From positions 1 to 24,220 of the IMG/VR virus record IMGVR_UViG_3300045999_005723: a DNA stretch of 24,220 bases. One strand, given 5' to 3'. This DNA comes from a virus. Shown piece after piece: positions 2,012 to 5,388 of the stretch (positions are counted from its first letter, which is position 1; the number at the start of each line of letters is the position of its first letter). The translations under genes were made by a program, and so were the position numbers. The notes beneath the pieces were generated by a model that made no database searches, was not told the origin of the DNA, and saw only the letters and a program-made list of their open reading frames with translations.

Positions 2012-2078
2012 GTGCCCGTGGTGTAGCGAACACGCTGGAGCGATCCAGAGACGCAGGATTCGACGCCTGCCGGGTGCT
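2012..2078 (+). tRNA. tRNA-like element 1, anticodon arm capped by a GCGA tetraloop
   Basis: The acceptor strand GTGCCCG (2012-2018) pairs with CGGGTGC (2071-2077), seven pairs with two G-T. A TG linker precedes a 4-bp D stem, GTGT with ACAC (2021-2033), around a 5-nt loop. The anticodon position holds CTGGA/TCCAG (2035-2048) closed by the four bases GCGA, a GNRA-type tetraloop, so no anticodon loop is possible. The T-arm GCAGG/CCTGC (2053-2070) carries an 8-nt loop ATTCGACG, one base longer than normal. CCA is not encoded. It is clearly tRNA-derived but cannot decode. The third acceptor pair is G-T, as in alanine tRNAs, though the next-base context is not alanine-like. Confidence 0.6.
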
Positions 2079-2118
2079 TGGTTTTGGTAACGTGGTTTTA
2101 CTTTGGAGATTGATTATG
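2078..2118 (+). repeat. Shared leader, copy 1 (matches 5015-5056)
   Basis: The stretch from the end of tRNA-like element 1 to the next start codon matches the stretch after tRNA-like element 4. Shared blocks are TTGGTTTTGGT, GTGGTTTT and GGAGATTGATT followed by ATG or GTG. The genes behind both leaders are also homologous. A looser version, TTGGGTTTTGGG, follows tRNA-like element 5. This shows that RNA element, leader and gene were duplicated together. Confidence 0.7.
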
Positions 2119-2313
2119 GGAATCATTGAAGCGTGCCTGTTGGTGTTCTGCTTGGAGTTTAATTTCAACGTGTTCGAACGGACGGCGGAGTGGGCGACAG
2201 GCTGGGACATCGGAAAGACAGGCAAGGCGGCTGAGCGTGGTCCCTGGTGGGTGAATCCATCGGGTACGTTTGGCCCTCCTCCTGGCGACGTTAAGCCGCC
2301 GACTGTGGAGTAG
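2116..2313 (+). CDS. Small membrane protein, paralogue of the 5054-5272 gene
   Basis: The ATG at 2116 follows TTTGGAGATTGATT. An upstream in-frame GTG at 2074 is rejected because it lies inside the tRNA-like element. The 65-residue product has an N-terminal hydrophobic stretch starting GIIEACLLVFCLEF, then ERTAEWATGWD, a WW pair, and a proline-rich end finishing KPPTVE. The gene at 5054-5272 shares GIIEA, the ER.AEW.TG motif, the WW pair and the KPPTVE end. Function unknown. It is probably a one-pass inner-membrane protein with a soluble tail. Confidence 0.65.
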   Translation: MGIIEACLLVFCLEFNFNVFERTAEWATGWDIGKTGKAAERGPWWVNPSGTFGPPPGDVKPPTVE

Positions 2314-2347
2314 GCGTAACCTCGGATTTTAGAAAGGACAACTTGGG

Positions 2348-2602
2348 ATGAATGATTTCGATGAAGCCACTGCAAAGCAGTTTGGAGAGATGCTAGGAAA
2401 GCAGCTTCAATCTGCTATTGAGGCATGGGAAAACGCAATGAAGGTTTTCCCTATCCGCAGCAAGCAGTACAAGGCGATTTGCAAGGCTGGTCTGGCGTGC
2501 CAGGATGCCTACCATGCGGCAAGGAGCCTGACTGAGGAAAGGCTGGGGATGGATGTAGCTAGCCGGTTCTTCACGGTTGGCGTTTACTGCGGGTTTTCTT
2601 GA
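2348..2602 (+). CDS. Hypothetical protein, 84 residues
   Basis: The ATG follows AGAAAGGACAACTTGGG. The product looks largely helical, with the motifs AKQFGEMLGKQLQSAIEAWE and CQDAYHAARSLTEERLG. There is no signal sequence and no recognised family. Its stop lies 7 nt before tRNA-like element 2, and only 34 nt separate it from the preceding membrane-protein gene, so it belongs to the same transcript. Confidence 0.65.
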   Translation: MNDFDEATAKQFGEMLGKQLQSAIEAWENAMKVFPIRSKQYKAICKAGLACQDAYHAARSLTEERLGMDVASRFFTVGVYCGFS

Positions 2603-2609
2603 TGTTGGC

Positions 2610-2684
2610 GGGTCGGTCGTCTAGTGGTCCAGGACAACTATGGCGTGACGCTGTGAAACGCGGGTTCGAATCCCGCCCGACCTG
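2610..2684 (+). tRNA. tRNA-like element 2, glutamate-tRNA-like frame with an abnormal anticodon arm
   Basis: The acceptor GGGTCGG (2610-2616) pairs with CCGACCT (2677-2683), all seven positions with one G-T. TC precedes a D-arm GTCT/GGAC with loop AGTGGTCCA (2619-2635), very like bacterial glutamate tRNAs. The T-arm GCGGG-TTCGAAT-CCCGC (2660-2676) is perfect. The 24 nt between D- and T-arms do not form a standard anticodon arm. The best fold is TATGGCG/CGCTGTG (2639-2655) capped by TGA. Forcing a 7-nt loop gives CGTGACG, which lacks the invariant U33. CCA is not encoded. A tRNA finder may call it with an odd or undetermined anticodon. Seven T residues follow at 2699-2705. Confidence 0.65.
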
Positions 2685-2686
2685 AT
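2660..2686 (+). repeat. 27-bp exact repeat, copy 1 (T-arm and acceptor 3' strand)
   Basis: These 27 bases are identical to 4449-4475. They span the T-arm, the 3' acceptor strand and three bases beyond in tRNA-like elements 2 and 3. The flanks on both sides differ, as do the middles of the two elements. The 3' half has therefore been copied or conserved as a unit. Confidence 0.85.
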
Positions 2687-2746
2687 GGAACTGAACGGTT
2701 TTTTTGAAGGGTTGAAAGGAGCTAGCGATGAGCGTGGAGGTGACAG

Positions 2747-3070
2747 ATGACCTTCGGTAGGTGGGCTAAGTTGCAGCGAATCAATTCTTTGCGAGTCAAA
2801 AGCCGTGGAGCGGCGGCTAGGCTGAACATCAGGCTAGATGATATTTACGGAGCTGATCCAATGCCAGAAAGCGAAGAGGAAGCGATGGCGAGTGACGTCG
2901 ACGAGATGGCCGCTACGCTGGATGAGCGGTACGGCAAGAACGGTTGGGATCTGTACCGTGGGATATTTTTTTGGATAGCAAGGATCGATAAAGATGGATC
3001 CACTCATCACGGCGACACCATCGGCCAGGCGATCATGGCAGCAATTGACCACAAGCCCCAGCCAAGTTGA
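2747..3070 (+). CDS. Hypothetical protein, 107 residues
   Basis: GTGGAGGTGACAG precedes the ATG. A ten-codon frame with its own AAAGGAG site starts at 2728 and overlaps this start in another frame, so the first gene may be a short leader peptide or a decayed start. The product has a basic N-terminus, an acidic middle with PESEEEAMASDVDEM, and a C-terminal part with ERYGKNGWDLYRGIFFW followed by DGSTHHGDTIGQAIMAAID, which looks like a phage domain of unknown function. It is cytoplasmic by composition. Confidence 0.65.
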   Translation: MTFGRWAKLQRINSLRVKSRGAAARLNIRLDDIYGADPMPESEEEAMASDVDEMAATLDERYGKNGWDLYRGIFFWIARIDKDGSTHHGDTIGQAIMAAIDHKPQPS

Positions 3071-3078
3071 GGTGACAG

Positions 3079-3168
3079 ATGGCGAGTGATTTGAACCTAG
3101 CCGATCTAGTCGGCATCGTGGCGGTTTTCGTTTTGATCTTGGCGGTTCAGTTTGCGGGGGGTGAGTGA
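3079..3168 (+). CDS. Tiny single-pass membrane protein, 29 residues
   Basis: GAGGTGACAG precedes the ATG, the same ribosome-binding sequence as before the 2747 gene. The product is almost entirely one hydrophobic helix (motif LVGIVAVFVLILAVQF, residues 10-25) with an acidic N-terminus and a short GGE tail. Its TGA overlaps the next ATG as TGATG, which suggests coupled translation. Small one-helix proteins of this kind are common in phage early regions. No function can be assigned. Confidence 0.55.
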   Translation: MASDLNLADLVGIVAVFVLILAVQFAGGE

Positions 3169-3395
3169 TGGGTGGCTGGCAGATGTGGCGGGTGCGAGCG
3201 TACACCGGCAAGAATCGAAACATCAACCTTGGCGATTCGTTTGTCCGAGCGGACACCGAGCAGCGAGCGAGGGAGCTTGGCAAGTCGGCTTTGCGGATGA
3301 CTGGCGTGCGTGGTACGTACAGGGTGGAGGCGGTGCCTTATTATCCTTGGACCGATTGGGCGTTCGCGGGATTAGTGCGGAAGGTGGGTGAGTGA
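3168..3395 (+). CDS. Hypothetical protein, 75 residues
   Basis: The ATG at 3168 overlaps the stop of the upstream mini-gene, and its own TGA overlaps the next ATG, so three genes are coupled in a chain. The protein is basic and mostly beta-like at the start (motif MWRVRAYTGKNRNINLGDSF), then has a helix with ADTEQRARELGKSAL. It resembles small phage proteins that remodel an argument-like fold, but no family is certain. A GTG one codon upstream is an alternative start. Confidence 0.65.
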   Translation: MGGWQMWRVRAYTGKNRNINLGDSFVRADTEQRARELGKSALRMTGVRGTYRVEAVPYYPWTDWAFAGLVRKVGE

Positions 3396-3682
3396 TGAGC
3401 GACAAGTCTGATCTACTGGCCGAGTTGGTCGTGGCAGATGTGACGATCAGGGAACAGGCGGAGGAAATCGAGCGGCTGAGGAAGGAAGTGGCGGAGATGC
3501 GATGGAGAGTCGCCAGTAAAGAGCATCCGGCGGGGTCTGAGTGGTGCTTGGTGTTGTCGGATGGTCCACGGTTTTCTTTGGCGTGGTTTGGCGGTTGTTG
3601 GGTTTCGTCGGATGGGTCGCCAGTAGAGCCTACCCACTGGATGCCACTTCCCAAGCCGCCAGCCGTGGAGGGTGGCGAGTGA
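3395..3682 (+). CDS. DUF551-domain protein with N-terminal coiled coil
   Basis: Residues 15-45 form a charged heptad-like helix (motif EQAEEIERLRKEVAEMRWR). The C-terminal half has the DUF551 pattern: SLAWFGGCWV followed by the family hallmark THWMPLPKPP near the end. DUF551 is frequent in phage early regions and its role is unknown. The length of 95 residues fits a coiled coil plus one domain. The start overlaps the previous stop. The end overlaps a 14-codon frame at 3679-3723 that is probably meaningless. Confidence 0.75.
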   Translation: MSDKSDLLAELVVADVTIREQAEEIERLRKEVAEMRWRVASKEHPAGSEWCLVLSDGPRFSLAWFGGCWVSSDGSPVEPTHWMPLPKPPAVEGGE

Positions 3683-3733
3683 CGACGGTATCGGCAACGG
3701 CGCGCCGACTATCGAGCAACTAGGGGAGCTATC

Positions 3734-4180
3734 ATGAAACGCGTCTATCTAGCGGGACCGATCAACCGTTGTACGGATGAGGAGGCGAAGGGCTGGCGCG
3801 AGCGGATCAAAGCGGCGTTGGCCGGTGAGGTTGCGTTTGACGATCCGATGGACCGCGACTACCGGGGCGCCGAGCGAGGAAACGAGCAGGAAATCGTCGA
3901 GGGTGATTTAGATCGGGTGTTTGACTGCGATCTACTTCTAGCGAATTGCTGGAAGCCGTCATGGGGAACGGCGATGGAGATAGCGGAAAAGGTGATGGCC
4001 GGTGGCCGCGTGCTGGTGATCCATCCGGGCGACTCGATCAGTCCGTGGCTAGAGTTTTACGCTACAGTTGTGGTTGGTGATGAGGCGGAAGCTATCGTGG
4101 CGATTCGCCGGATATTGGGTTTCGATTCGAAAGGCGACGAATGCTGCATTCATTGCGGCGCACCAGAAGAGAGGCAGTAA
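3734..4180 (+). CDS. Nucleoside 2-deoxyribosyltransferase-like protein (DUF4406 type)
   Basis: The 148-residue protein begins MKRVYLAGPI, the typical first strand and loop of the nucleoside deoxyribosyltransferase-like fold. It then has DPMDRDYRG, DRVFDCDLLLANCWKPSWGT and AMEIAEKVMAGGRVLVI, in the order expected for the active-site acidic residues and the GT.mEi helix. Family members move deoxyribose between bases or hydrolyse nucleotides. The C-terminus adds CCIHCG, a possible metal-binding knuckle. AGGGGAGCTATC precedes the ATG. In a phage this suggests adjustment of the nucleotide pool or production of a modified base, possibly together with the DUF5664 protein at 15.2-15.6 kb. Confidence 0.75.
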   Translation: MKRVYLAGPINRCTDEEAKGWRERIKAALAGEVAFDDPMDRDYRGAERGNEQEIVEGDLDRVFDCDLLLANCWKPSWGTAMEIAEKVMAGGRVLVIHPGDSISPWLEFYATVVVGDEAEAIVAIRRILGFDSKGDECCIHCGAPEERQ

Positions 4181-4417
4181 ATGGCAAGTACACAAATTGA
4201 AATTGCACTAGCAGACGACGACAGGAAACGCATCGACCGGTTGTGCGGCTTGATCGAGGGCAAAAACGCAATCGATGAGTTTGAAGGATGGTTACGGAAA
4301 AGGTACGCATCGCATGTGTTCACATACAACGGTAGCGGTCTTGGCATTCACAAGCGTCTTGCGGATGAAGTCAAGGAAATCATTGAACAACTACACGAAG
4401 CTAAGACCACAAGTTAG
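4181..4417 (+). CDS. Hypothetical protein, 78 residues
   Basis: The ATG directly follows the TAA of the previous gene, with AGAGAGGCAG as binding site. The product is charged and helical, starting MASTQIEIALADDDRKRIDR, which resembles the opening of small phage regulators or ribbon-helix-like proteins, but no family is assigned. Its TAG overlaps the first bases of tRNA-like element 3 by two nucleotides, so processing there would trim the mRNA at the stop codon. Confidence 0.65.
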   Translation: MASTQIEIALADDDRKRIDRLCGLIEGKNAIDEFEGWLRKRYASHVFTYNGSGLGIHKRLADEVKEIIEQLHEAKTTS

Positions 4418-4473
4418 GTCCGTGGAACAGTCGTTATACAGAGCTGAGGCGGGTTCGAATCCCGCCCGACCTG
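4416..4473 (+). ncRNA. tRNA-like element 3, shortened (one arm missing)
   Basis: The acceptor AGGTCCG (4416-4422) pairs with CCGACCT (4466-4472) at six of seven positions. The T-arm GCGGG-TTCGAAT-CCCGC (4449-4465) is perfect and identical to that of element 2. Only 26 nt lie between acceptor and T-arm, against about 41 in a normal tRNA. They can form at most one short weak stem (CAG with CTG). No anticodon is visible and CCA is not encoded. It may be a deleted copy of element 2 or a minimal acceptor-plus-T-arm hairpin kept for its own sake. Confidence 0.5.
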
Positions 4474-4475
4474 AT
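4449..4475 (+). repeat. 27-bp exact repeat, copy 2
   Basis: Identical to 2660-2686. It covers the T-arm, 3' acceptor strand and three following bases of tRNA-like element 3. The two copies are about 1.8 kb apart in the same orientation. Confidence 0.85.
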
Positions 4476-4498
4476 TCATAGAGTTTGTGGTAGCCGAG

Positions 4499-4526
4499 CC
4501 GGACGGCAACTCCGGTGCATTTTTTT
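4499..4526 (+). terminator. Possible rho-independent terminator or further tRNA-arm relic
   Basis: CCGGA (4499-4503) pairs with TCCGG (4511-4515) around the 7-nt loop CGGCAAC. Seven T residues follow at 4520-4526 after TGCA. This fits a modest terminator just before the gene at 4542. The 5-bp stem with 7-nt loop also matches the geometry of an anticodon arm with GCA in the anticodon place, though U33 is absent. The preceding GTGGTAGCC resembles the D-region of elements 1 and 5. Either reading is possible. Confidence 0.35.
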
Positions 4527-4541
4527 GTTATCGGGTGATTT

Positions 4542-4889
4542 ATGACAATGCCACACTTGCAGAACTGCGACCACAGCGATACTGGATGGTGCCTAGATTG
4601 CGTCAAGAAGTTGCATGATGAATGGGAACTGAAACTTGATATTCAAAAATCTTGCCGGTTCCAGCACAATGCCGAAGAACTGAAGGCCATTGGCGAACTG
4701 CTGGCTTTTCTTGAAGCGTGGCCAGAGTCTACGAATCACGCTGATCTTGGCATTGAAGGTAAGATCGAAGTGTGGTGGACCGATTCGCTGATGGGCGTTA
4801 TTGAGGGCGACTGCGAAAGTGGATGGGACTACCATCCAGTTGCGTTTGGTGAGAAGGGAACGCAGGAACGACACGGCAAGAACATTTGA
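4542..4889 (+). CDS. Hypothetical protein with possible N-terminal metal-binding site, 115 residues
   Basis: The N-terminus has the spacing HLQNCDHSDTGWCLDCVKKLH, with four cysteines/histidines that could bind zinc. The rest is acidic and mixed, with motifs LLAFLEAWPESTNHADLGIEG and KIEVWWTDSLMG. No family is recognised. The binding site (TCGGGTGATTT) is weak, and an ATG two codons later is an alternative start. The stop lies 8 nt before tRNA-like element 4. Confidence 0.65.
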   Translation: MTMPHLQNCDHSDTGWCLDCVKKLHDEWELKLDIQKSCRFQHNAEELKAIGELLAFLEAWPESTNHADLGIEGKIEVWWTDSLMGVIEGDCESGWDYHPVAFGEKGTQERHGKNI

Positions 4890-4897
4890 CGGAGACT

Positions 4898-5014
4898 GGA
4901 TCGGCGGCGTGGCGTGTCGACTGTTGCGCAGCAGTTGGCCGGAGACGCGTCTTTCCTGCGGAGATTAATTACCTCCGGCGAAAGAAGACGCAGGTTCGAT
5001 TCCTGCCCGATCCA
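4898..5014 (+). tRNA. tRNA-like element 4, 117 nt with an oversized middle
   Basis: The acceptor GGATCGG (4898-4904) pairs perfectly with CCGATCC (5007-5013). The T-arm GCAGG-TTCGATT-CCTGC (4990-5006) is perfect and A5014 sits at the discriminator position. The middle is 85 nt, about twice normal and too small for a group I intron. It can fold as one hairpin, CGACTGTT/AGCAGTTG (4919-4938), closed by GCGC. It can also form a long arm at 4950-4986 in which TCTTTC pairs with GAAAGA and CGGAG with CTCCG. Within that arm a 7-nt loop TTAATTA could present AAT with a proper U33, so a decoding role is not fully excluded. CCA is not encoded. Confidence 0.55.
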
Positions 5015-5056
5015 TTGGTTTTGGTTTTGTGGTTTTCAACAAGGAGATTGATTGTG
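5015..5056 (+). repeat. Shared leader, copy 2 (matches 2078-2118)
   Basis: Same TTGGTTTTGGT, GTGGTTTT and GGAGATTGATT blocks as copy 1, in the same order and spacing, between tRNA-like element 4 and the paralogous membrane-protein gene. The start codon here is GTG where copy 1 has ATG. Confidence 0.7.
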
Positions 5057-5272
5057 CGACGTGACAAGAGAAATCGACTCGGTATCGGCATCATCGAGGC
5101 GTGGTTGATTTTCTGGGGCGTGGTGGGTGTGCTGGGTACCGTTGAAGGCTTTTTCCAGCCCGGCGAGCGACTGGCCGAATGGGTGACAGGCGAGGATGTT
5201 TTCATCGATGGCAAGCCGTCAGAATGGAATCCGTGGTGGGGCGACAAGCCAAAGCCACCGACTGTTGAGTAG
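5054..5272 (+). CDS. Small membrane protein, paralogue of the 2116-2313 gene
   Basis: The GTG at 5054 follows AAGGAGATTGATT. The frame stays open far upstream through tRNA-like element 4, but starts there would translate the RNA element and have no binding site. The 72-residue product has a basic start (RRDKRNR) and one hydrophobic helix with the motif AWLIFWGVVGVLGTV (residues 16-30). Next come ERLAEWVTGED and a WW pair, and it ends KPPTVE. The basic start predicts the N-terminus inside and the acidic, proline-rich tail outside. It shares its tail motifs and leader with the earlier gene. Function unknown. Confidence 0.65.
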   Translation: MRRDKRNRLGIGIIEAWLIFWGVVGVLGTVEGFFQPGERLAEWVTGEDVFIDGKPSEWNPWWGDKPKPPTVE

Positions 5273-5275
5273 TCG

Positions 5276-5352
5276 GCTCCCGCCGTGGTGTATCCAGGAA
5301 ACACAGTCGGGCGATCGCTCGAAAGTTGCCGGTTCAACTCCCGCCGGGTGAA
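5276..5352 (+). tRNA. tRNA-like element 5, degenerate, short anticodon-arm loop
   Basis: A D-stem GTGT/ACAC (5288-5304) with a 9-nt loop follows TG, exactly as in element 1. The next arm is TCGGGC/GCTCGA (5307-5322) closed by GATC, so there is no normal anticodon loop. The T-arm GCCGG-TTCAACT-CCCGC (5328-5344) has one C-C mismatch. The acceptor strands CTCCCG and CGGGTG pair at five of six positions, with two or three extra bases before the D-arm. CCA is not encoded. It starts within a few bases of the upstream stop codon and is followed by a looser version of the shared leader. It is weaker than elements 1, 2 and 4. Confidence 0.45.
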
Positions 5353-5388
5353 TTGGGTTTTGGGAATGTAACTTTTTGGAGGTGTGGG

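Follow-up and report, generated by a model that had tools for sequence, protein, structure and literature searches.

Do the sequences resembling transfer RNA (tRNA) that separate the small genes of a phage serve a purpose, and if so, which? The question is raised by the virus record IMGVR_UViG_3300045999_005723, whose 24,220 bases constitute the window of our analysis and where, in a region of small genes at the left end, five spacers hold such sequences, as had been noticed in an earlier note made from the letters alone. Our analysis confirms all five as real tRNA-like elements, although with corrections to their previous description. Their stems are conserved by compensating changes under selection acting on the sense RNA, the capability for decoding has been lost, and the elements occupy a defined position between genes with distinct features at their 3' boundary. 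They belong to a widespread, apparently undescribed class in uncultured phages, and they probably act as tRNA-like processing signals in polycistronic phage messenger RNA (mRNA), as 'phage t-elements' that would be cut by the RNase P and RNase Z of the host.

The identity of the five elements is reflected in their detection by a covariance model, R1, whose 12 rows derive mainly from elements of other phages but include element 2 of the window. It is also reflected in a strict scan for a T arm combined with an acceptor stem across 1.0 Mb of related loci, where 48 matches are located on the gene strand, a single one on the other (in the unoriented L020) and none are left after shuffling; a chance origin of the matches is excluded. 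The T arm with its TTCRA loop and the acceptor pairing ascribed to all five spacers are borne out, apart from the damaged acceptor of element 5. ARAGORN calls no tRNA in the window, and element 2 is the only one to exceed the cut-off of the Rfam tRNA model (RF00005; 41.7 bits vs 29), which besides gives weak matches at 5279-5352 and 4986-5006. The free folding energies of the elements, with z ranging from -0.5 to -2.8, are not decisive alone. Element 1 adopts a full cloverleaf as its unconstrained minimum-energy fold, with a GCGA tetraloop instead of the anticodon loop, and the loop of four nucleotides claimed for elements 1 and 5 is equally found in element 5, whose relatives in L007, L008 and L009 combine a tetraloop hairpin at the anticodon position with a complete acceptor of 7/7 pairs. 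In element 2, described as having no proper loop, the canonical anticodon loop is indeed absent, but a hairpin with a UGA triloop can be read by eye in its place; the unconstrained fold favours another pairing. Element 3, said to be short of one arm, lacks both the D and the anticodon arm, its acceptor begins within the stop codon TAG (4415-4417) of the open reading frame (ORF) 4181-4417, and its end is better set at 4474. The extra domain attributed to element 4 corresponds to two additional helices; this element is the weakest match of R1, partial and with E = 0.067, and has an orthologue of 97% identity in L017.

About 100 distinct relatives of these elements were gathered in uncultured phage contigs via DNA anchors or neighbouring genes. 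The identical contig L004/L006 and the related phages L005 and L007-L014 came from protein searches. Querying with the 3' element halves added L017, L019 and L020, and querying with one gene family encoded in the region added 69 loci, many of them only distantly related. Classes of D arms served as DNA anchors in three collection scans and in a fourth that was kept as an out-of-sample test; several of the contigs are redundant or overlapping. Throughout the class, the acceptor stem and T arm are kept and the D arm usually is, whereas the anticodon arm is either missing or has given way to a tetraloop hairpin or to a larger domain of at most about 130 nt. The elements found in the strict scan span 46 to 143 nt, with the minimal version of 46 nt in L017 consisting of the acceptor, a linker and the T arm only. 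Few relatives exceed the Rfam tRNA cut-off, and tRNA finders miss the class because the anticodon is lacking.

Since the first set of elements was partly found by its pairing, our claims on pairing are based on sets anchored by the D arm with the acceptor left free, and a mixed-class MAFFT alignment that had placed 5' ends wrongly was left out of the pair counts. In two D-anchored classes comprising 24 distinct elements with about 13 different acceptor sequences, counted without a damaged copy in L017, the acceptor and T stems contain 261 Watson-Crick, 24 G-U, 0 A-C and 3 other pairs. In the out-of-sample class, defined by the anchor GGCGTGGTGGGAACACG, a T arm is present in 36 elements, of which 34 form at least six of the seven acceptor pairs, compared to 8.5% if the 3' strands are swapped, and these elements carry 25 different acceptors; 11 more anchor matches have no T arm within reach. 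Double changes are found in all seven acceptor pairs and in four of the five T-stem pairs of this class. Covariation amounts to 0.570 vs 0.190 in shuffled alignments and 0.435 vs 0.151 in the first two sets and to 0.587 vs 0.154 in the out-of-sample class, with none of 500 shuffles reaching any of these values, which are inflated by kinship, although slid controls are far lower as well. The prevalence of G-U over A-C pairs, seen again in the out-of-sample class (16 vs 2), implies that selection acts on the sense RNA.

The preservation of the upper half is accompanied by a loss of decoding. A canonical anticodon arm is found in 3 of 59 elements as opposed to 24 of 30 annotated tRNAs of the phages BF23 and CF1 and 4% of shuffled middles, in a simple test that gave 7/63 before four ordinary or unrelated matches were set aside. 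None of the five window elements contains a 5-bp anticodon stem with a 7-nt loop and U33. The anticodon position is often occupied by a short hairpin with a GCGA, GCAA, GAAA or UUCG tetraloop. Of 24 middles in the D-anchored set, 19 surpass their own shuffles in folding by more than one standard deviation, and at corresponding sites of the D1 set the sequence of the anticodon hairpin drifts while its pairing is retained.

The location of the elements is equally distinctive. With ORFs called by a simple rule, which renders all fractions approximate, 48% of 63 elements start between -3 and 12 nt after an ORF stop, mostly at 4-8 nt, compared to 7% of random positions, and a start codon with a Shine-Dalgarno sequence is found 10-60 nt 3' of the element in 48% vs 16%, most frequently at 35-40 nt. 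A stop within 12 nt and a Shine-Dalgarno start within 80 nt are combined in 29% of the elements vs 1.6% of the control. Longer distances are often due to tandem elements separated by TTTT. In the last set, 43 elements are on the gene strand and none on the other. In the window, the described proximity to upstream stops holds for element 2 (7 nt from ORF 2348-2602), element 3 (overlap), element 4 (8 nt) and element 5 (3 nt), but not for element 1, since the closest clear gene on its 5' side already ends at 1906. The described placement ahead of ribosome binding sites is seen in the leaders with a Shine-Dalgarno sequence following elements 1, 4 and 5.

At the opposite boundary, CCA follows none of 59 elements and U is found at +2 in 58 of them; in 43 distinct leaders, U accounts for 79% at +1 and 98% at +2 before dropping to background (with T at roughly a quarter). 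The RNase Z of Bacillus subtilis is stimulated about 200-fold by a U no more than 2 nt from the discriminator (PMC10100781), and RNase Z is repressed by CCA while its contacts with the D arm and the anticodon loop are dispensable (PMC7479834). Both sequence determinants for RNase Z, the nearby downstream U and the missing CCA, are present in the elements.

These properties are consistent with a mechanism where the half composed of acceptor and T arm, usually together with the D arm, would fold co-transcriptionally, and the anticodon arm, having nothing to decode, is capped, enlarged or lost. RNase P would cut where the acceptor stem begins, a few nucleotides past the upstream stop, and RNase Z after the discriminator, aided by the U within 2 nt and the missing CCA, so that the downstream gene would keep a leader of 35-40 nt and its own Shine-Dalgarno sequence. 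The presumed benefit would consist in separate fates of the cistrons, and the excised RNA may or may not serve a second role. The 'tRNA punctuation' that the earlier note had proposed gains support from position, gene strand, the absent CCA, the near-invariant U and the tRNA-like top half found in L196 (see below), from which we infer the cleavage itself. No excess of promoters was found in the element region of the window, which also favours this proposal. Several observations weigh against it. Only about half of the elements directly follow a stop, and some are arranged in tandem with only TTTT in between, where one cutting signal would do. In the independent last set, a U within 2 nt is found in 25 of 34 cases with 40% expected, and the preference is thus weaker than in the first set. 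The anticodon domain extends up to about 130 nt, the acceptor of element 5 forms at best five of seven pairs in the window phage and is damaged, and the D arm GGCGTGGTGGGAACACG is identical to the base in dozens of contigs, which goes beyond the needs of RNase P and RNase Z; its 17-base identity is built into the search, but its sharing by 74 contig stretches is not.

A related tRNA-like structure in L196 informs the choice between explanations. At 5205-5296 on the minus strand, a 92-nt element matches both ends of transfer-messenger RNA (tmRNA; RF00023, 53.1 bits) and lacks the mRNA-like part. It is located 5 nt after a TAG and followed by a Shine-Dalgarno-like sequence, in the same layout as a D2 element about 1 kb upstream, and a G3-U70 pair can be discerned by eye. 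It is the only match of this model, which finds none among the window elements. The occupation of one kind of site by different tRNA-like top halves points to the top half as the part that matters, and the element in L196 might possibly act as a tmRNA decoy. Such a function is part of an alternative that the earlier note had raised in the form of decoys and that we regard as possible, if rather doubtful, namely that the elements are tRNA-scaffolded small RNAs or decoys, whose variable domain or mimicry would act on tRNA-targeting defence, EF-Tu, tmRNA/SmpB or RNase P. It would account for a constant scaffold bearing a hypervariable domain that ranges from 0 to about 130 nt, for the tandem copies, for a D-arm conservation beyond what RNase P and RNase Z should require and for the mimic in L196 with its G3-U70 pair, but it leaves the tight spacing between stop, element and Shine-Dalgarno sequence unexplained. 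Moreover, the drifting sequence and kept pairing of the anticodon hairpin would suit a cap rather than a sequence-specific payload, and discriminators and acceptors match no evident tRNA identity. With somewhat greater reserve, we consider a combination of both roles, where the tRNA or tmRNA top half with its near-invariant D hairpin would be a scaffold that the RNase P and RNase Z of the host excise, and the hypervariable domain would act in trans on host RNA biology, thus providing gene separation and a stable effector RNA in one.

The remaining explanations are less compatible with our data. Among relatives, the genes that surround the elements occur in shuffled order, and of 52 alignment ends, 23 (7.3 expected) are in or within 15 nt of an element. 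A chimera in L005 (7850-7963), in which the 5' part of element 4 is fused to the 3' end of element 1, is a recombination product. The elements are thus likely crossover points. These features, together with attC-like AACAAGCGTTATAC sequences preceding some 3' halves in L007, would be expected if tRNA 3' halves were recombination sites at the DNA level, att- or attC-like cassette boundaries that shuffle small genes among phages. We consider this improbable, since it does not account for the selection at the RNA level manifested in the excess of G-U over A-C pairs, since the freely varying acceptor sequences leave no common core site, and since the acceptor of the chimera is broken and alignment ends may also arise from fast divergence; more likely, recombination follows as a by-product from the homology of the repeated T arms. 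Still less probable are cis-acting leader regulators of the translation or transcription of the downstream gene, comparable to the tRNA-shaped yjdF riboswitch or T-box-like systems. They would explain the constant 35-40 nt to the start codon in many copies, but the link to the upstream stop is equally tight, copies occur in tandem, no conserved alternative pairing or ligand pocket was seen, and the conserved U is found at the RNase Z position. Least probable is a decay of phage tRNA genes, for which ordinary phage tRNAs adjoining elements in L128, L154 and L171 and a few clearly damaged copies (element 5 of the window and L017 9760) could be invoked. The earlier note had argued against random decay and had named a lack of compensatory stem changes in related genomes as a possible refutation of its own claim. 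Such changes are abundant in acceptor and T stems in three sets, tetraloop hairpins are retained and 56 of 59 elements have no canonical anticodon arm, so that decay is refuted for the class, although single copies may decay.

The proposed processing signals resemble several known systems. In plant mitochondria, according to a published account that cites Forner 2007 and Hanic-Joyce 1990 (PMC8003010), t-elements are tRNA-like structures between cistrons that set sites of endonuclease cleavage. The phage elements share the tRNA-like structure between cistrons of the same strand, but they occur in bacteriophages, in many of them and often several per genome, they are tightly placed between stop and Shine-Dalgarno sequence and covary, and their cleavage is predicted; they would be t-element-like by anatomy, with their membership hinging on cleavage. 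Mitochondrial tRNA punctuation similarly places the site between coding genes of the same strand but relies mostly on functional tRNAs, whereas the phage elements are devoid of an anticodon. The tRNA genes of T5/BF23 and T4-like phages, which in BF23 are likewise interspersed between small ORFs, encode CCA and mostly a canonical anticodon arm, in contrast to our elements. The tRNA-like domain of tmRNA also is a tRNA top half without anticodon, but the phage elements lack an mRNA-like part. The TMERs of gammaherpesviruses and RNAs of the MALAT1 mascRNA type are tRNA-like for processing by RNase P and RNase Z and not for decoding. Unlike the phage elements, they are eukaryotic and not repeated spacers between bacterial-type genes.

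Rfam 15 contains no family for these elements beyond tRNA, and we found no description of anticodon-less or punctuating tRNA-like elements in phages in a literature search that mostly lay outside subscription journals. Elements of classes D3 and D2 show only tRNA T-arm or chance matches in isolate phages, the D arm of D2 alone has no match in phages and two chance matches in plasmids, the exact 3' half of T arm and acceptor has none in bacterial and archaeal genomes, and the left end of the window gives only short chance matches to sequenced phage isolates. The elements form a class of structured RNA that is conserved in many uncultured phages and is uncatalogued. If cleavage occurs, phages would cut their own operons with the tRNA maturation machinery of the host, a principle known from mitochondria, which would provide a natural precedent for tRNA scaffolds and tie phage gene expression to the activity of RNase P and RNase Z. 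A decoy function of the excised RNAs would instead point to unknown tRNA-centred defences.

The elements, their leaders and the adjacent ORFs are compiled in Table 1. Elsewhere, the window encodes phage replication genes including an exonuclease, a Sak4-like annealing protein, SSB, a helicase and a primase.

Table 1. tRNA-like elements, leaders and neighbouring ORFs at the left end of the window.
Feature	Position	Strand	Description
Element 1	2012-2078	+	Acceptor GUGCCCG/CGGGUGC, D arm, anticodon-position hairpin CUGGA-GCGA-UCCAG, T arm with 8-nt loop; R1 34.2 bits; orthologue in L007
Leader	2079-2115	+	37 nt, element 1 to next start; U-rich 5' end, Shine-Dalgarno
Small ORF	2116-2313	+	3' of element 1; ends KPPTVE as does the ORF after element 4; no Pfam match
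Small ORF	2348-2602	+	5' of element 2; no Pfam match
Element 2	2610-2684	+	tRNA-Glu-like D arm by eye; anticodon arm replaced by 6-bp hairpin with UGA triloop; R1 57.2 bits
Element 3	4416-4474	+	Acceptor (6/7 pairs) and T arm only, no D or anticodon arm; R1 25.8 bits; orthologue L017 8383-8444
ORF	4542-4889	+	Between elements 3 and 4; no Pfam match
Element 4	4898-5014	+	117 nt; perfect 7-bp acceptor, T arm, two extra helices in anticodon region; R1 19.4 bits
Leader	5015-5053	+	39 nt, element 4 to next start (GTG); Shine-Dalgarno AAGGAG
Small ORF	5054-5272	+	Between elements 4 and 5; resembles ORF 2116-2313
Element 5	5276-5352	+	Acceptor imperfect, anticodon-position hairpin with 4-nt loop; R1 27.6 bits
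Leader	5353-5388	+	36 nt, element 5 to next start; Shine-Dalgarno TGGAGG

Additional observations concern anticodons predicted in the relatives. Those called by ARAGORN vary in identity (Val, Asn, Leu) within one conserved family, and most were therefore treated as artefacts. The same program finds a tRNA-Met (CAT) near anticodon-less elements at L030:10428-10497, L106:10966-11035, L107:145-213, L154:2666-2740 and L171:1884-1957, and an 8-nt anticodon loop with a four-base anticodon (gggc) at L025:3570-3644 and L091:6567-6641, which possibly arises by chance in the variable hairpin.

Other features are found in the surrounding sequence. Integron attC boxes (RYYYAAC and GTTRRRY at both hairpin ends) were not detected; one-sided AACAAGCGTTATAC-like pieces were recognized by eye in a few copies of L007, L017 and L019. 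Such sequences, resembling the end of attC and with a stop codon inside, precede several 3' half elements on their 5' side (L007:1007-1053, 1783-1811 and 2268-2320; window 4425-4440), and the reverse complement of one is located at about 7537-7550 of L017. A terminator-like hairpin with a T run is found 3' of element 3 at 4498-4523 of the window, with the T run being absent in L007 and L019. In 69 viral loci, a diverse family of phage proteins (GIPGVPEGWELV...; alignment A1, L007:2890-3252 and others) is encoded, for which no relatives were found among sequenced bacterial and archaeal genomes or phage isolates. Finally, the similar ORFs 2116-2313 and 5054-5272 both end in KPPTVE and each follows a tRNA-like element, with more variants present in L007 and L019.

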